A stretch of DNA of 64,000 nucleotides. Source: Cloeon dipterum. Lineage: Eukaryota; Arthropoda; Insecta; Ephemeroptera; Baetidae. The stretch covers positions 36,398,959 to 36,462,958 of the forward strand of contig NC_088788.1 of the NCBI RefSeq assembly GCF_949628265.1. Reading direction: 5' to 3'. A program made the translations under genes and the position numbers. Positions 1-24,599 of this stretch are shown piece after piece. The stretch's first letter is position 1. Every line of letters begins with the position of its first letter. The notes below the pieces were generated by a model that was not told the DNA's origin, ran no database searches, and worked only from the letters and a program-made list of their open reading frames with translations.

Positions 1-634
1 GGCCAAAATTGTCAAGTTTGGAGTCGTTTCACTGGCTTTTAAACCACCGGAGTTCAAATTTTGTTACGAATATTTTTCACAACATAAAAAATAATGTTTT
101 TGGAAAGTGTTGCATGCCAATATTTAATACTATTTAGACAACTTTAGACGATTTTAGAAGGTTTTGATATATTTAAGTAGCTTAAAGTTGCATGGTTCGT
201 GCTCATTTTATATAGTCCCACAATGATGATCTGAACCTTAGAAAAGAAAGTCAACCGTCAAAAATTCACAGCCCTATAGATGTCGTGATGTTGTCTGTTA
301 ATAAACCAATTTTAAAAATATTTAGTTCGTTCATTGCGGCGGTAGAAATTCTCAACATAGAAATCGTTTTCTTTCAAAAGGTCAGGATTCTTTTGAAAAA
401 GTTTTCAATAAATAATCAGGTCAATGTTTAGTAAAACTGAAGCACTTGAGAAGAATTCAAATAATCAAGTGTTGTGGAGGTTCAAAATGTTCGTCATCTT
501 TTATGCGTAAACCAAAACGACGTACGAGTGATTTAAAAACGAACACCACCCAACACCTTAAGACATCCAGCACTCAGTATGAATTACTTGGAATAAAATG
601 CACGATGCCAATTATTTTATAATTTTCATTTTAG
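1..634. other. Non-coding left edge, probably intronic
   Basis: AT-rich sequence with stops in all frames. No signal peptide or CTLD-like exon is visible here. The exon starting at 635 begins inside a codon after a good acceptor (TTTTAG), so the first exon of the lectin/OBP gene must lie further left, probably outside the window. This stretch is best read as its intron. Confidence 0.5.
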
Positions 635-3600
635 AGGAAATTTTCAAACAGCTGTAACCAAAAATGACAGCAGGGATTATGAAAATAATTCTATCACTGA
701 TTCTGATACAACCCCCTCTGAACCAAACCAAAATCCCATTGAAAGAGAAACATCTTCCTCTGATCAAGGCATCACGTCACCTGAGCCAACCAATTCGGAG
801 CTGACAACCGTCACGATTTCGCAAAGTGACACTATGCAGGTCACTTCCACCACCATCACAACAGCTAAACCAATAAATAATGTAGGCTCAGATCTATTAG
901 TAGAGATCTTTCATTCTTAAATAACAATTGTTTTTAGGAAGCTTGCGAACAGTCTCGATGCGCAACCTTCACTTTCATCGCAAACCAGGTTTCAATTAAT
1001 CCTTTTTAAGAATATAAAAACAGGAGATCAACTCTTCAATCCTTATTTTAATGAAAAATTTCAAATAAGTGTTTTAATGAAGTAGCATTCCACAATAGTT
1101 CACGCTATATATCGACACAATTAACACGTTGGCATTAAATTAATTCAGGGTGCATCATCAGTGATCACCGCAAACACGAGTAAAAGGAAATTTATGCCGT
1201 TGAAGAAATGCCTAAATTTTTGCTATTTTAAATCAGGCAAGCAAATTATTAGAAACGGAATGACGTTTCTGTTTTCGTCAGCAGTAGCGACTCAAGTTGA
1301 CGCGGCCAAGAACTGCTTTTCGCGCAATTTGAATTTAATTTCTGTGCAGGACGCCCTGAAAATGAATCTTGTTCAAAAATTGCTTCAAGGTTCGTGTTTT
1401 AATTTTATTCATTTTAATTTTGTCTTAACGCTTTAAAGATGTTGGCACCGATTCTACCGTCTGGACAATTGGCTCCAACGAAGGAAACGTGTCGTGCCAA
1501 AATTACAATTTGAGTTTCGCCTGGTGCAACCAGAAAAGAGAAATCGTCCTTCCCGTGATCATGCAAGAAATGAACAGTTTGGAAATAGTTAAAAAAGGAC
1601 TGACGACGTCCATGCTTAACGGTGCTGCCGTCTTGCAAACGTCAGATTCTAATACTCTGTTTCCGTTTTTGTGTGAGGTATGTCGTAATTAGATATTTCA
1701 TTTATATTTAAATTAACATATTTTAAAACTGATAAATTAGCCAAAAGGTGATTTTCAAGACTCTTGCCTCCCTCTTATGTGCAACAAAGACGTATGCTTC
1801 GCATTAATTCTGACGTGTATTAATTATTTTTTTTTCGAATTTATAGAGCACATTATTTGACGCAAAAAATGGGAATATTAAGGGTAAATCGAGAATCCTA
1901 TATTTTCTTATTTTAACTTGGAAATAATGAAAAATATTATATACAAATCGCGAATTTATTTTAGAATGGCTTCTCCCATAAATAGGCAAAAAACAATTAA
2001 AACGGGCTAAACCAAATAACATTTGGCAGCTATTGCAAAATAAATAAATGAACAATCTTTTTTTAGCTAATTTATTCCCTTACATTATTTATATTCAGAT
2101 GGAGAAAAGTACGGGAATTGGACACGTACCTGCGACAAATCGTACCTTTTCTCTGGCAAGCTTGTTAGTGTTAAATTTTTGATTTTTCTTTTCAAAAATA
2201 ATAATAAATTCCTTATAAATCCTCAAAGGGCACTTGGCAGCAGAATTGGGACTTTTGTTGCAGATTAGGAATGCACCCGATTTGGTTTAGCTCGGCGTCC
2301 GATTTCGAGTGTTTGAGCAACACGACTAAAGTCAACTGGACGCTAAACTATAATTATTGGACGGCGGGACGCGCAATGGGCACCTGGGGAAGGTGGGCCT
2401 GGTGCCCAGGGGCCGTCAACCTTCCCGACTCGCTTTCCTGGGCTCCGGGGCAACCGGACAATAATCAGACAAACGAGAATTGCCTTCATTTGCAAGTGAC
2501 GAAAAATGCGAGCGGAATACTTTTATCAGACCGGAACTGCAGCCACAAATACGTCATGGCTTGCCAGGTGAGATGAATAATTTCAGTATTTGTTGTTGTT
2601 GAGAGCTTGGATATTTTAAGGGTGACACGATGATAGCGTCCTACTGCAACAAGCCAAATTGTCCGATGAAGTGTAGTAGAAATGCAAGATTTTCCTTGTC
2701 TAAATTAGGGCTTTTTTAACAATATATTTCAAACGTCATAGGAATCGTTTTTCGAAAAGGGAATATTAAAAGGTTAGTGATTTGAGCCTAAAATTAGTGA
2801 AAATTTTTTGAACTTCTATTTCAGATCTGTTTGTTCACGGCCAGTGGAATGCCGGTTGTGGCAAAGATTTTCTGTTTTCGGCTGCTGCTGTGATTTTATT
2901 TTAAAAATATATATTTTATCGATTTTATCTTTTAAAAATTATAAATTATCAAGTTGGATTGGTTAGGCGCGTGGAATTATTGTTGCTCCGTTGGAATGAA
3001 ACTGGCCTCGGTCGAAGCTCTTGAGGAATTGAGTTGTCTTACGAATATGGTTGCGAAATATCCTAGAGCAGGTAGAATAATGATATTTCCAATTAAGATT
3101 AATTTGACTCTTTTATAAACTCTTATCAGTGTACCCTGATCAATGTGGAAGGGATTTCTGGACATCTGGCACCAACCGCGGTTGTCCAGGCTCTCACTTC
3201 TGGTGTTCAGAGAATGAAAAATTGAACAAGGAAGAACTAGCCAACTGGAAAAACGGGCAAATGCCCTCGGAGAGTGCTGATCAGTGCATTTTTATTAATT
3301 TGTCAAATTCGACTTTGAGTGAGACTTATTTGGGCGCTGATTCATGTTCCAAGCAAAAACAGTTTCTCTGTGAAGTGATGCTTTACAATTTTTTTTATTC
3401 TACATTTTAATGTTTTTCGTTTCTTTGTCTTTCAGGCCTTGCAACCGGGCAATAAATCGGTGCAAATCGCGCGCTCTTGCTCGGAAACTTGGAATGTGAC
3501 AGACGATGAAGTGAATGATATAATCATGAATCCAAACGGTGACGTCGTCAACCAAAGACGCAATCTCAAAGTGCGGCTACGCAAATTAACTGGATTTATT

Positions 3601-5039
3601 TTAAAAATCGTGTATATTTTTGCTTCGCAGTGTTATCTTAGGTGCTGCGGGAAAAAAGGACATGTTGTAAATATATTTCTTTAGTTCACTTTTTAAAAAT
3701 CAAATAAAATCTGATTATGGAAAAGATAAAAAGCGGGTCACTGGTGACGGATGAAATTTTGCGCAACTTAGAGGACTTGACGGCCGACGACTCGCAAGCA
3801 ATGCAGGATGGCTTTCAAAACTTTGATTCCTGCATTTCCATTCGTATGCTTTTTATATGTGCAAATACAATTGCGAATCTTTTTTTTTTGCAGAGTCCAC
3901 TGACGAATGCAACACGACGGCCCAGGTGTTCGGGTGTGGCAAGAAAAATGCACCAGACCTGACAGTCGGGCTCGTCACTGCCATCAAAGGAGACGCCACT
4001 GTGACTTTTTGAATTCTATTCATACAGAATAAAATAGCTTTTAATTTGTATTCGCCAGGTTTCAGTAACTGCTACAGGGGGAATTACAACCGGCAATAGA
4101 GTATGTCCTCTGTATCCAGCAGCAAGTTGTGTACCAAATGTAATCTTACTAAACTATACTAATTTACAGTAAGATTGACTAATGTTGTTCTTGTAGCAAA
4201 CACATATCGATGAACTTAAAAACACGGGATCATGTAATCAATTTACTTTTCTTTCATCAGACGCATAATTTTTTAAGTTTTAATGTTGAGATAATGGAAA
4301 ATCAAAATATTTAGAGTAATTAAATATTTTTTAATTGTAAATTATATTAAAAGGTGGATTCCCCGTCTTTTTAATAATCTCAACTGGTCCATATCCATAT
4401 TTTTTTTCATCAGAATAATATTATATAAAAATATTCATCAGTATTGTGTTAAAAACTGTTTCTCGTTCACGGCAAAATTTAAATGAAAGATCTAATTTTT
4501 ATTTCAGCATTGGGGGGAGGTGTCATGACAACATCGAATGGCAAAAAATACTTTATGAAATATGTCTTTTATGAAGGAATTGTAAGTAATTTAAAATTCA
4601 AACAGTAAATAAACGCATTAAAATAATGTTATTTTTCTAATGTTAGACCGACGCTCAAGCAGAAGCAAACTACTGCTGTGTTCTTGGCAGCCACCTTGTC
4701 ATTTTCGAAAGCTTAGAGGATTTCAAAGCTTTTATGCAAAGCTGGCAAGGTGAAAAATTCTCTTGACATTTTGTTGATCAATTGGGAGCTGGAACGAATA
4801 TTATAGATGGTACACAACACTGGGCTATCCTTGGACCAACCTTCGACAACGGTGATGGCACCGACAGCTGGTGCTTGAACTTTAAGAAGATGCCAGCAGG
4901 AATGATCACAGATATCAACACATTTTATCGAAACCAGCAGTTGAACTCGACTATATTCTTCAGGCAAGGCTTAGAATTATACTCAGTTCCAAAGGGAAGT
5001 GTGTTTCACCGAGTTTTATGTGGCCCACTTCCCTACTAA
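635..5039 (+). CDS. Modular C-type-lectin-like protein with an internal odorant-binding-protein domain (5' end missing)
   Basis: Exons read: 635-881, 938-988, 1149-1389, 1439-1677, 1741-1791, 1847-1883, 2099-2163, 2229-2577, 2621-~2671, 2742-2772, 2825-2889, 2954-3071, 3130-3374, 3436-3570, 3631-3666, 3726-3843, 3894-~4000, 4059-4139, 4197-4233, 4508-4581, 4647-4749 and 4807-5039 (TAA). The first exon encodes a Ser/Thr-rich, mucin-like stalk. Four CTLD modules follow. The second is the clearest: it has WAPGQPDNNQ, a galactose-type QPD, and a closing NCSHKYVMACQ. The others keep the closing Cys (FLCE twice, then VLCGPLPY) but lack EPN/QPD and WND, so sugar binding is doubtful. An OBP-like domain lies between CTLD3 and CTLD4. 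Two-Cys linkers separate modules. I expect a secreted or surface recognition protein. Splice phase agrees at every junction checked except the donor near 2672. A weak donor at 4001 leaves an alternative, with the protein ending at TGA 4010-4012 and CTLD4 belonging to another transcript. Confidence 0.78.
3436..4000 (+). other. OBP (PBP/GOBP-type) domain inside the lectin gene
   Basis: The four exons 3436-3570, 3631-3666, 3726-3843 and 3894-~4000 join in phase. The six cysteines have the classic insect OBP spacing: C1-x30-C2-x3-C3-x42-C4-x8-C5-x8-C6. C2 and C3 are in CYLRC, C4 in FDSC, and C5 to C6 is CNTTAQVFGC. The first exon follows the closing exon of CTLD3 (FLCE) at a strong acceptor in phase 0. 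There is no start codon, signal peptide or promoter-like sequence between them, so the domain looks fused rather than a separate gene. OBPs carry small hydrophobic ligands in extracellular fluid. The ligand here cannot be told from sequence. Confidence 0.8.
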
Positions 5040-5580: not shown

Positions 5581-5589
5581 TATATACCG
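5581..5589. repeat. Left 9-bp target-site duplication of the foldback element
   Basis: TATATACCG, identical to 9644-9652. The arms match inward from just inside these copies. Confidence 0.65.
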
Positions 5590-5971
5590 GTCGGATTATA
5601 CTTACGTGGTTGCGGCCAGCTGCTGGTGTTTTTGGCCACGCCCACAGCCGTGTGGAAATCGTGGCAACACTGCAGAGTGCACTCTACGTTCACGTAGTTG
5701 AGCAAATGACACAAGATGGCAGATGAGTGCACAAAACGAAAACATTCGTCACATGAGCAAAGCGCGGCAATTATTGCCAGCAGCTTCGGACAATAAGGAC
5801 AAAAGGCTGAAATTTAATAACTGTTTTATAATTGTAGAGTGATTCTTGCTACACTTGAGTTTGCGCTTCATTGTGTGGCGACATAATAATTATTGTTATT
5901 ATTAAAAATCTAACTTAATTCGAGTAACTTCAGGACCAGAATTAATTTTTCCTCCCATGCAGCTTGTTTAA

Positions 5972-6416
5972 AGAGGAATGATATGCTGCAAAAGCCCGGA
6001 AAATGCTTGTTGTCATTGCTTAAACACATCCCTTAGGATTCATTTAAAGCCTAAATTGACCTACGAAGCACTGTATTTTTTTAGAATATTCGCTGGAAAG
6101 CTACCGTACTTTTCAAATAGTAATAAAATTAGTGTCTCCTTACTTGAAATCTGATTAAATTTAAAAAAGAGTGTTTCCCTAATAAGTAACAAATACCGTT
6201 GGACAAATCTCGACGAGAGGAATCGGAATTTGCCCAGAAAATATATGTTCACGCACTCGAAATTTTTGAGAAACTTGGCAAAATTTGAATTCTTATGGTA
6301 GGAAGCTCCCTTTTTAATTATTGCAAATTGTTGAACAAATTGTTTATCGATCAATTGCTTATGTCATCCAACAATATTTCAAATAATTTTCAATAATTGC
6401 CCTGTAGCATTCCACT
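5972..6416 (-). mobile_element. TTAA-flanked MITE nested in the left foldback arm
   Basis: Bounded by TTAA at 5968-5971 and 6417-6420. Ends are inverted copies of an AGAGGAATGATA-type sequence. It is homologous to the solo copy at 36861-37295. A TTAA target duplication is typical of piggyBac-like elements. It holds no coding sequence. Confidence 0.7.
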
Positions 6417-6965
6417 TTAATCGGCTCTTTAAAACTGGACTAATAAATTGCTGCGGTGTGCAAAACATCATAAATAAATTAAACTGTAGACAAATCTTTA
6501 TTAAAAAATGGTAACGATCAAATTAAAGTACATATCGAAATATGTAAAAGATTTTATAGTTGAAAATAAGCAGTGGTAATTGGCAATCCCCGCTGCCAGA
6601 GCGAAACGATATTGATTTCTATGTTGTATCAACTGTAGAATTAAATATATAAATTATAAGAGACAGGGTGATTGACCAACCCTATTGATAATCGCTAAAC
6701 ATCACTTGAATCTTAACTAATAATGCTGAATGTATCCTTGGCAAGATCTTCCATTACTAACAAAAAATATCAAACTCCACACGCTGATCGACGCGCGTAA
6801 AGATACTATTCAGTACGCCTCCTGCATTTTCGAGGTACATATCATCCAAATTTAAAAAAAACCAGACACTGTATCAACAAATTCTTTCATCGTAGAAACC
6901 GCACGCGTCAGCCGGACATAGAATTAAAAAAAACATTTATTTCCATGGAGACGCAACATGCCAGT

Positions 6966-8090
6966 CACCGCATGACGCTTTATGCGTAACGCGTGACGCC
7001 TTTACGGTGACGCTATATATACGAGTCTCCGCATGACGCTACCGCAGTTATTGCATGACGCTACTTGATTCTCCGCATGATGCTACTGCAGTACCGCATG
7101 ACGCTACTGCAGTACCGCATGACGCTACTGCAGTACCGCATGACGCCACTGCAGTACCGCATGACGCTACTGCAGTACCGCATGACGCTACTGCAGTACC
7201 GCATGACGCTAATGCATTACCGCATGACGCTACTGCAGTACCACATGACGCTAATGCAGTACCGCATGACGCTACTGCAGTACCGCATGACGCTTCTACA
7301 GAACCGCATGACGCTACTGCAGTACCGCATGACGCTAATGCAGTACCGCATGACGCTAATGCAGTACCGCATGACGCTAATGCAGTACCGCATGACGCTT
7401 CTACAGAACCGCATGACGCTACTGCAGAACCGCATGACGCTACTGCAGTACCGCATGACGCTAATGCAGTACCGCATGACGCTAATGCAGTACCGCATGA
7501 CGCTAATGCAGTACCGCATGACGCTTCTACAGAACCGCATGACGCTACTGCAGAACCGCATGACGCTACTGCAGTACCGCATGACGCTACTGCAGTACCG
7601 CATGACGCTACTGCAGTACTGCATGACGCTAATGCAGAACCGCATGACGCTAATGCAGTCATGGCATGACGCTACTGCAGTACCGCCTGACGCTACTGCA
7701 GTACCGCATGACGCTACTGCAGTGCCGCATGACGCTTCTACAGAACCGCATGCCGCTAATGCAGTCATGGCATGACGCTAATGCAGTACCGCATGACGCT
7801 TCTACAGAACCGCATGACGCTAATGCAGTACCGCATGACGCTACTGCAGTACCGCATGACGCTTCTACAGAACCGCATGACGCTAATGCAGTCATGGCAT
7901 GACGCTAATGCAGTACCGCATGACGCTACTGCAGTACCGCATGACGCTTCTACAGAACCGCATGACGCTAATGCAGTCATGGCATGACGCTAATGCAGTA
8001 CCGCATGACGCTACTGCAGTACTGCATGACGCTAATGCAGTACTGCATGACGCTACTGCAGTTATTGCATGACGCTACTTGATTCTCCTT
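6966..8090 (+). repeat. 21-bp minisatellite, forward block
   Basis: About 50 tandem copies of a 21-bp unit built on CATGACGCTACTGCAGTACCG-like variants. Each unit carries CTGCAG or a variant (ATGCAG, CTACAG). Some junction units read GCAGTCATGG and are 22 bp, which gives longer-period blocks after about 7660. The first copies, 6966-7060, are degenerate. Because 21 is a multiple of three, several frames stay open on both strands (for example HDATAVP repeats). These are a by-product and not a gene. Confidence 0.95.
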
Positions 8091-8097
8091 GATGACG

Positions 8098-8568
8098 CTA
8101 ATGCAGTCATGCGATACTGCAGTAGCGTCATGCGGTACTGCATTAGCGTCATGCCATGACTGCATTAGCGTCATGCGGTTCTGTAGAAGCGTCATGCGGT
8201 ACTGCAGTAGCGTCATGCGGTACTGCATTAGCGTCATGCCATGACTGCATTAGCGTCATGCGGTTCTGTAGAAGCGTCATGCGGTACTGCAGTAGCGTCA
8301 TGCGGTACTGCATTAGCGTCATGCGGTTCTGTAGAAGCGTCATGCGGTACTGCATTAGCGTCATGCCATGACTGCATTAGCGGCATGCGGTTCTGTAGAA
8401 GCGTCATGCGGTACTGCAGTAGCGTCATGCGGTACTGCAGTAGCGTCATGCGGTACTGCATTAGCGTCATGCGGTTCTGTAGAAGCGTCATGCGGTACTG
8501 CAGTAGCGTCATGCGGTACTGCAGTAGCGTCATGCGGTACTGCAGTAGCGTCATGCGGTACTGCACCC
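8098..8568 (-). repeat. 21-bp minisatellite, inverted block
   Basis: The same monomer and its longer-period blocks, in reverse complement, starting about 20 bases after the forward block ends. The two blocks form a long palindrome continuous with the foldback arms. Confidence 0.93.
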
Positions 8569-8817
8569 TGTCTCTTATAATTTATATATTTAATTCTACA
8601 GTTGATACAACATAGAAATCAATATCGTTTCGCTCTGGCAGCGGGGATTGCCAATTACCACTGCTTATTTTCAACTATAAAATCTTTTACATATTTCGAT
8701 ATGTACTTTAATTTGATCGTTACCATTTTTTAATAAAGATTTTTCTACAGTTTAATTTATTTATGATGTTTTGCACACCGCAGCAATTTATTAGTCCAGT
8801 TTTAAAGAGCCGATTAA

Positions 8818-9260
8818 AGTGGAATGCTACAGGGCAATTATTGAAAATTATTTGAAATATTGTTGGATGACATAAGCAATTGATCGATAAACAATTTGTT
8901 CAACAATTTGCAACAATAAAAAATGGACCTTCCTACAGTAAAAATTCAAATTTTGCCAATTTTCTCAAAAATTTACAGTGCTTGAACATATATTTTCTCG
9001 GCATATTCCGATTCCTCTCGTTGAGATCTGTCCAACGGTGTATGTCACTTATTGTGGAAACTCCTGGTTTTGAAATTAAATCGGATTTCAAGTAAGGAGA
9101 CAGCCCTTGCCTTTTGAAAAGCACGGTAACTTTCCAGCGAATATTCTAAACAAAATTACAGTGCTTCGTAGGTCAATTTAGGCTTGAAATGAATCCTAAG
9201 GGATGTGTTTATGCAATGACAACAAGCATTTTCCGGGCTTTTGCAGCATATCATTCCTCT
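8818..9260 (+). mobile_element. TTAA-flanked MITE nested in the right foldback arm
   Basis: Mirror copy of 5972-6416, bounded by TTAA at 8814-8817 and 9261-9264. Its presence at the same place in both arms means it entered the arm before the arm was duplicated or homogenised. Confidence 0.7.
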
Positions 9261-9643
9261 TTAAACAAGCTGCATGGGAGGAAAAATTAATTCTGGTCCT
9301 GAAGTTACTCGAATTAAGTTAGATTTTTAATAATAACAATAATTATTATGTCGCCACACAATGAAGCGCAAACTCAAGTGTAGCAAGAATCACTCTACAA
9401 TTATAAAACAGTTATTAAATTTCAGCCTTTTGTCCTTATTGTCCGAAGCTGCTGGCAATAATTGCCGCGCTTTGCTCATGTGACGAATGTTTTCGTTTTG
9501 TGCACTCATCTGCCATCGTGTGTCATTTGCTCAACTACGTGAACGTAGAGTGCACTCTGCAGTGTTGCCACGATTTCCACACAGGTGTGGGCGTGGCTAA
9601 AAACGCCAGCAGCTGGTCGCAACCACGTAAGTATAATCGTACC

Positions 9644-9652
9644 TATATACCG
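9644..9652. repeat. Right 9-bp target-site duplication of the foldback element
   Basis: TATATACCG, identical to 5581-5589. Confidence 0.65.
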
Positions 9653-23133: not shown

Positions 23134-23508
23134 CCCTAATATTTATCTGCCAAAAATACGAAGCAATCACTTTCAATGCTGAATAATCTGGTATGAACAT
23201 ATAGCAAAATTGGTAAAGAAATTAGATTTAACTTAATCTAGCTGAAATTAATGATACAACTCGATTGTTTTGTCATTTGCTATGTTCATATGGGTTATTT
23301 CCAGTTAAGTTTTTAATTCGTTCGACTTTGTGTTCGAGAAAATAAATTTTTGATTTAAAAAATCTCAAATATGTTGTATTTTTACAATGTTGAGAGCGCC
23401 AAATCTCAGGTTGTGAGGGTCCGAAATGTACGCAACGACCGCAGAGTTTATTATTTAATCTAGTGACTAGAAGAAATGCTTTGCACCTTTAGCTTGATTA
23501 ATTTGGGT

Positions 23509-23524
23509 GGCCCTGAAAAGGGCC
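23509..23524 (-). terminator. Histone 3' stem-loop of H2A
   Basis: Perfect 6-bp stem, four-base TTTC-type loop, 25 bases past the stop codon. It directs SLBP/U7-dependent 3' processing. Confidence 0.93.
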
Positions 23525-23548
23525 GATTTTCGGAGAGCGGCTACAGAA

Positions 23549-24154
<606 letters not shown>

Positions 24155-24529
24155 ATGCCTCCCAAAACCTCCGGAAAGGCCGCCAAGAAGTCGGGCAAGG
24201 CCCAGAAGAACATCAGCAAGTCTGACAAGAAGGGAAAGAGGAAGCGCAGGAAGGAGTCCTATGCCATCTACATCTACAAGGTGCTGAAGCAGGTCCACCC
24301 CGACACCGGAGTGTCCAGCAAGGCCATGTCGATCATGAACTCGTTCGTGAACGACATCTTCGAGCGCATCGCCGCCGAAGCCAGCCGCCTGGCGCACTAC
24401 AACAAGCGCTCCACCATCACCTCCCGCGAAATCCAGACCGCCGTCCGTCTGCTGCTGCCTGGAGAATTGGCCAAGCACGCCGTTTCTGAGGGAACCAAGG
24501 CCGTGACCAAGTACACCAGCTCCAAATAA
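24155..24529 (+). CDS. His2B: Histone H2B
   Basis: 124 residues, intronless, from [18 protein letters not shown] to AVTKYTSSK. The basic tail and complete histone fold are present, with the repression motif region KRKRRKES and the C-terminal helix holding the conserved ubiquitylation Lys (in VTKYTSSK). It pairs with H2A in the nucleosome core. It is followed by a perfect stem-loop at 24560-24575. No poly(A) signal is needed. Confidence 0.98.
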
Positions 24530-24559
24530 GCTGCTCGCGTCAAGCTTGTAGCTAAAATC

Positions 24560-24575
24560 GGCCCTTTTCAGGGCC
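24560..24575 (+). terminator. Histone 3' stem-loop of H2B
   Basis: GGCCCTTTTCAGGGCC followed by ACCCA, 30 bases after the stop. Confidence 0.93.
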
Positions 24576-24599
24576 ACCCAAATTTATCTGCCAAAGATA

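Follow-up and report, generated by a model that had tools for sequence, protein, structure and literature searches.

A Mayfly Gene Family with an Odorant-Binding-Protein Domain Apparently Embedded in a Chain of C-Type Lectin-Like Domains

Introduction

Repetition of the odorant-binding protein (OBP) fold is known from the salivary D7 proteins of mosquitoes, which contain two OBP domains and no C-type lectin-like domain (CTLD). Classic OBPs, in turn, are described as stand-alone chains of ~120–170 amino acids that are typically secreted (PMC13205551). In this study, we are discussing a gene of the mayfly Cloeon dipterum that places an OBP domain between the third and the fourth of four presumed CTLDs. 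It lies at 470-5039 on the + strand of the window, which is the whole stretch of DNA analysed (64,000 nucleotides; C3:36398959-36462958, with C3 standing for contig NC_088788.1) in a 190 Mb assembly of 10 contigs.

For Cloeon dipterum itself, a 180 Mb assembly with 191 OBP genes has been reported, the largest repertoire described at that time (2020, PMC7250882); gill expression is documented for 82 of 167 OBP genes, and some gill OBPs occur in cell clusters positive for the neural marker HRP. The main text of that paper contains no word beginning with “lectin”. For a second mayfly, Parafronurus youi, the accessible part of the report lists 10 OBPs of 135–252 amino acids, nine of which have the classic six-cysteine signature, and likewise contains no word beginning with “lectin” (PMC13205551). 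In the damselfly Calopteryx splendens, four OBPs have been reported, three of them fragmented, and the accessible part of that paper mentions C-type lectins once, separately, under immunity (PMC5381652). A further paper, PMC12758981, deals in its accessible part with OBPs in lacewing venom and with a ricin-type lectin, with no fusion of the two, and PMC11597413 contains none of four terms looked for.

An initial annotation of this DNA, made from the sequence alone, had proposed a chimera of CTLDs and an OBP and had known of no described fusion of this kind. In agreement with the latter point, no described CTLD-OBP protein was found among the part of the matches seen in the open-access literature, preprints and supplements being outside its scope, and the large chimeric gene family outlined below is, apparently, undescribed.

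The OBP Domain and Its Place in the Chain

In the window gene, a Ser/Thr-rich stalk is followed by CTLD1, CTLD2, CTLD3, the OBP domain and CTLD4, in this order, with a terminal stop at 5039. The exon model was built from splice signals and reading phase; between 1149 and 5039 it comprises 20 exons and 805 codons, with phases that agree at the junctions, no internal stops and a TAA at the end. Judged by this model, the gene forms, almost certainly, one reading frame for one protein comprising CTLD1–3, the OBP domain and CTLD4.

The OBP domain is spread over four + strand exons—exon 1 with C1 (3436..3570), exon 2 with C2 and C3 (3631..3666), exon 3 with C4 (3726..3843) and exon 4 with C5 and C6 (3894..4000)—each of which is backed by the phase model and by Pfam. 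In the spliced domain, the cysteine intervals are 30, 3, 0, 41, 8 and 8, with an extra Cys immediately after C3, so that the six-cysteine OBP spacing x30-x3-x42-x8-x8 given in the initial annotation is exact. The Pfam family PBP_GOBP (PF01395; cut-off 22) matches the domain alone with 40.8 bits (E 2.7e-10) and the whole spliced chain with 35.6 bits (E 1.1e-8), spanning model positions 13-113 of 113, and the best match of the OBP part among solved structures is the OBP 4pt1 (2.2e-4). A chance match of six cysteines is ruled out by these Pfam and solved-structure matches. Lectin_C (PF00059; cut-off 22.6) matches the whole chain in two stretches with 34.3 bits (E 4.1e-8); the profile search of the spliced protein that had been named beforehand as a check thus returned both families above their Pfam cut-offs.

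The intron preceding the OBP domain measures 50-64 bp in 17/17 copies, i.e., the window gene and 16 close paralogues; the window's own copy of this intron contains no in-frame ATG, and no OBP signal peptide is visible. This bears out the earlier statement that the OBP has no start codon or signal peptide of its own, and its placement after CTLD3 and before CTLD4 is upheld by phase-consistent splicing, Pfam and all 16 close paralogues read. The window OBP is not a stand-alone small protein with its own signal peptide; going by its sequence, it is a domain of the OBP type rather than a conventional OBP. A stand-alone OBP beside a CTLD gene was rejected on the strength of the short intron, the phases and the paralogues.

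Close Paralogues and Selection on the Domains

With the OBP domain as query, 131 exon matches were obtained from the genome in six-frame translation. The 16 close paralogues are those whose 3 kb loci were returned by this search; no fewer than three others (near C3:1458515, 2410636 and 2457777), adjoined by CTLD exons, lie outside this set. In each of the 16, the OBP domain is preceded by exons of CTLD2 and CTLD3, and its four exons all have acceptor and donor sites; at least part of CTLD4 follows in 15, the sequence of the sixteenth (L011) ending first. In L011, an insert of ~1.1 kb is situated inside the OBP, between OBP exons 2 and 3. PBP_GOBP and Lectin_C are both matched by Pfam also in the chains of two paralogues (L018 and L024), and CTLD1 is present as well in a head-to-head paralogue ~8 kb upstream of the window gene. 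BLAST failed to locate the short exon ahead of CTLD3 in 10 of the 16 paralogues; because their concatenated frames shift, domain tests were run exon by exon.

Median pairwise ratios of nonsynonymous to synonymous substitution rates (dN/dS) were 0.12 for CTLD3, 0.16 for CTLD2 (16 sequences, without L005), 0.27 for the OBP domain (17 sequences; 136/136 pairs below 1) and 0.75 for CTLD4 (14 sequences, without L011, L022 and L030; 77/91 pairs below 1, maximum 1.45). As its dN/dS is below 1 throughout, the OBP domain is maintained at the protein level within these genes by purifying selection; CTLD4 is, on these ratios, relaxed or diversifying. In-frame stops occur in the examined domains of 2 of the 17 copies, L011 (OBP exon 4) and L025 (CTLD2), which, therefore, look disabled.

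Genome-Wide Distribution of the Family

For the census, OBP-like and CTLD rows were hand-picked from match lists, with at least two weak matches omitted (C4:31081054 and C4:31178529); all counts apply among the matches listed, and the 168 loci constitute an incomplete and biased set. The OBP queries were drawn from fused OBPs, so that the fused share is biased upwards and distant stand-alone OBPs may be under-counted. A locus was scored as positive when the listed matches included a CTLD exon of the same strand no more than 4.5 kb upstream of it.

When listed matches were merged within 3 kb, such an exon preceded 155 of 168 OBP-like loci (median distance 714 bp), compared to 28 of 10,000 random positions. 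Merging within 1.5 kb gave 157/170; the difference is explained by partial second OBP copies at C1:17069290 and C5:27974825, where the CTLD exon lies behind another OBP. Reading of the 13 loci without a listed CTLD revealed CTLD exons missed by the CTLD queries in 12 of them, which brings the count to 167 of the 168 loci listed; it is qualified by L057, which shows one CTLD exon, OBP exons 1-2 not being recognisable. The family is organised in tandem expansions on five contigs.

The layout extends to divergent copies. In L035 (C5:25.57 Mb) and L037 (C3:13.73 Mb), CTLD exons flank the OBP on both sides. Among seven further OBP-like loci on C1, C2, C4 and C5, upstream CTLD exons are found in six of the fetched stretches, the stretch of the seventh (L040) beginning at the OBP with the CTLD exon just outside; a CTLD exon downstream of the OBP is present in six of the seven, and L043 has none in its remaining sequence. 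L040 further shows two OBP units on one strand (4-260 and 2057-2197); a CTLD exon lies in the ~2 kb separating them, and the second unit has no full CTLD set ahead and has lost its C5 cysteine (DES). This may reflect an incomplete duplication or one gene with two OBPs, and C5:27974825/27976807 may be a similar pair.

Distances between OBP copies and those between CTLD3 copies correlate with r 0.976 over 31 loci and r 0.738 over 15 divergent loci (L040 and L051-L057 excluded, L049 without OBP exon 2), and 0 of 5,000 permutations were as high in each set. This is expected if the fused pair was duplicated together; more than one fusion event may have occurred and would be compatible with the correlation. 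In the five OBP cysteine columns scored (C1 not included), three cysteines are kept in 31/31 loci and two in 30/31.

Searched with the PF01395 profile itself, the genome yields one place (L001), whose 3.2 kb are devoid of CTLD exons at E 0.1; used as a query, the L001 OBP exon finds itself and two weak matches. Conversely, 35 of 190 distinct CTLD matches listed have no listed OBP within 4.5 kb downstream (38 of 202 before near-duplicates were merged), so that plain CTLD genes are probably also contained in the genome. CTLD exons at C3:1405828-1420580 and C2:8297602-8334491 have no listed OBP match downstream; they are probably plain CTLD genes, some adjoining a CTLD-OBP cluster, and are possibly near to the pre-fusion form.

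A one-off rearrangement is ruled out by the 16/16 close paralogues together with the census. The chimera of the initial annotation stands, but whereas it was treated there as an isolated case, its layout recurs at well over 100 places. To judge from the sequences, there look to be well over 100 loci with this layout, and many apparent OBPs would be lectin-carrier hybrids.

Exon Organisation and the CTLD Repeats

All exons of the window gene lie on the + strand. Three exons upstream of 1149 join in phase—a Cys/basic N-terminal segment (CCGGSKC...; 470..576) that ends in phase 2, is in phase with the following exon and shows a 24-base (8-codon) in-frame gap versus paralogue L036; the Ser/Thr/Pro-rich stalk (635..881), aligning with L036, with the acceptor at 635 located as previously annotated; and a two-Cys linker preceding CTLD1 (938..988). 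In L036, a signal-peptide-like first exon is readable, consisting of ATG, a hydrophobic stretch of ~19 residues and a GT donor. The signal peptide of the family chain has been read in this paralogue only and should be present likewise in the window gene.

The remaining exons rest on the phase model. CTLD1 is encoded by two exons, 1149..1389 (84% in the neighbouring paralogue) and 1439..1677 (95%). A linker exon (1741..1791) leads to CTLD2, which comprises a short opening exon (1847..1883), a further exon (2099..2163) and the core exon carrying QPD (2229..2567). The next linker exon, preceding CTLD3 (2621..2683), appears to have a GC instead of a GT donor at 2683, and some paralogues could use a GT nine bases downstream. 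CTLD3 is composed of a short opening exon (2742..2772), two exons at 2825..2889 and 2954..3071, and a final exon ending in FLCE (3130..3374). After the OBP exons, a linker exon (4059..4139; present in 15/16 paralogue loci) precedes CTLD4, formed by a short opening exon (4197..4233), two exons at 4508..4581 and 4647..4749, and the final exon with the stop codon (4807..5039).

Searched alone, CTLD3 passes the Lectin_C threshold (27.3 bits vs 22.6), and CTLD1, CTLD2 and CTLD4 give no Lectin_C match. The solved structures (PDB) matched by CTLD2 are selectins, with E-selectin at 1.5e-7. In profile-profile comparison, CTLD2-CTLD3 (6.5e-10), CTLD1-CTLD3 (5.4e-8), CTLD4-CTLD2 (1.6e-5) and CTLD4-CTLD3 (9.8e-5) are related, and no relation was detectable for CTLD1-CTLD2 (0.29) and CTLD1-CTLD4 (0.45), with OBP-CTLD controls at 0.79 and 0.11; for CTLD4 (4059-5039), the likeness to CTLD2 and CTLD3, over ~60 columns, is the only one found. 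Given these mixed results and the missing Lectin_C match of each alone, CTLD1 and CTLD4 are taken, with moderate certainty, as degenerate CTLDs.

Proposed Function and Alternative Explanations

CTLDs that bind sugars in a Ca-dependent manner are characterised by EPN or QPD together with WND motifs, with QPD denoting the galactose-type loop; CTLD2 of the window gene keeps QPD and E-N-C. With evenly balanced confidence, we propose a secreted stalk-CTLD1-3-OBP-CTLD4 family, in which the CTLDs anchor a ligand-capturing OBP at a glycan-rich surface. The chain would be secreted with a signal peptide, followed by the Ser/Thr-rich stalk, CTLD1-3, OBP and CTLD4. The CTLDs, above all CTLD2 with its QPD loop, would hold it in glycan-rich mucus, cuticle or glycocalyx, and the OBP domain would capture small hydrophobic molecules. 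Anchoring in secretions exposed to water would stop the carrier from washing away in an aquatic animal, and the fast-changing CTLD4 might tune attachment or recognition by each copy. A glycosylation-prone stalk, a QPD-loop CTLD and an OBP domain could together hold a carrier on a glycan-rich surface, and the union of recognition and small-ligand carriage in a single secreted chain is plausible.

Several observations weigh against this proposal or qualify it. CTLD2 has LSD where WND is expected, the canonical Asn being replaced, and CTLD1, CTLD3 and CTLD4 are devoid of EPN/QPD, so that sugar binding by the window CTLDs may be weak or absent. The first coding exon of the window gene is unreadable, and the gene truly starts beyond what can be read; of the 10 kb upstream (L002), 7,500 bases are N, including the 700 immediately before the window. 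One locus, L056 (C3:1963659), has no CTLD exon in ~2.6 kb and is probably a disrupted copy, as OBP exon 1 has a 73% match ~6 kb upstream of this locus. Finally, a link to the gills is valid only if the genes of the window family are the published OBPs.

A secreted immune or microbe-binding receptor, with CTLDs on surface glycans, an OBP binding hydrophobic microbial molecules and CTLD4 engaged in an arms race, is a less likely but tenable alternative. It would fit the tandem expansions on five contigs and the finding that CTLD4 is under far looser constraint than the remaining domains and exceeds a dN/dS of 1 in some pairs, and insect CTLDs are often immune; however, the median dN/dS of CTLD4 is below 1, a value also explained by relaxed constraint. 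It is rather improbable that the OBP is a disulfide-rich structural spacer without ligand in an adhesive, mucus or cuticle protein. Many non-olfactory roles are known for OBP domains; the purifying selection on the OBP and its kept cysteines speak against a mere spacer, although both are also compatible with a structural role. Very improbable, at last, is the erroneous joining of an adjacent CTLD gene and OBP gene, for which an in-frame ATG in the pre-OBP intron of 1/17 copies, a Met preceding C1 within OBP exon 1 of five copies and an in-frame stop upon retention of that intron in 8/17 could be adduced, but an intron of this length leaves little room for promoter, leader and signal peptide, the phases agree across it with CTLD4 continuing in phase, and a CTLD exon lies upstream at nearly every OBP-like locus listed.

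Other Features of the Window

Downstream of the gene, 5583-9649 forms a fold-back with arms at 5583-6080/9152-9649 (97% complementary) and 6155-6670/8564-9079 (95%), and a 21-bp minisatellite of ~73 copies in the middle (7029-8565); in appearance, this structure resembles a mobile element of the fold-back type. Two histone 3′ stem-loops (Rfam RF00032) at 23484-23529 (-) and 24555-24599 (+) indicate that replication-type histone genes are probably located near 23484-24599.

Comparison with Known Systems

The general assumption is that OBPs act as small soluble carriers, and well over 100 loci with OBPs built into a lectin chain alter the reading of OBP counts in basal winged insects. The CTLD-OBP layout further suggests a means by which a ligand carrier could be retained at its site in water.

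With classic insect OBPs, the window OBP has in common the six-cysteine spacing and the near full-length Pfam match; those OBPs, however, are stand-alone chains, whereas the window OBP is built into the interior of a CTLD chain. In the D7 proteins, as in the window gene, an OBP-like domain is part of a longer secreted chain, but without a CTLD. The joining of a lectin domain to another functional domain is shared with the chimerolectins, as presented in the accessible part of PMC12355970, the main text of which contains no words beginning with “odorant”, “pheromone-binding”, “OBP” or “insect”. Among palaeopterans, the OBPs of P. youi are, with 135–252 amino acids, too short for the architecture of the window gene, and C. 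splendens, palaeopteran like the mayfly, has only four.

With the published OBP set of C. dipterum itself, the present genome shares its compact size and a very large number of OBPs, with 191 genes in 180 Mb there compared to ~170 OBP-like loci listed here in 190 Mb. We consider it somewhat probable that this published repertoire is mainly one chimeric CTLD-CTLD-CTLD-OBP-CTLD expansion, with the gill “OBPs” being lectin-anchored carriers; if true, the mainly chimeric repertoire would represent an aquatic alternative to free-diffusing OBPs. The published set is described as OBP genes, whereas the loci analysed here are CTLD-OBP chimeras.

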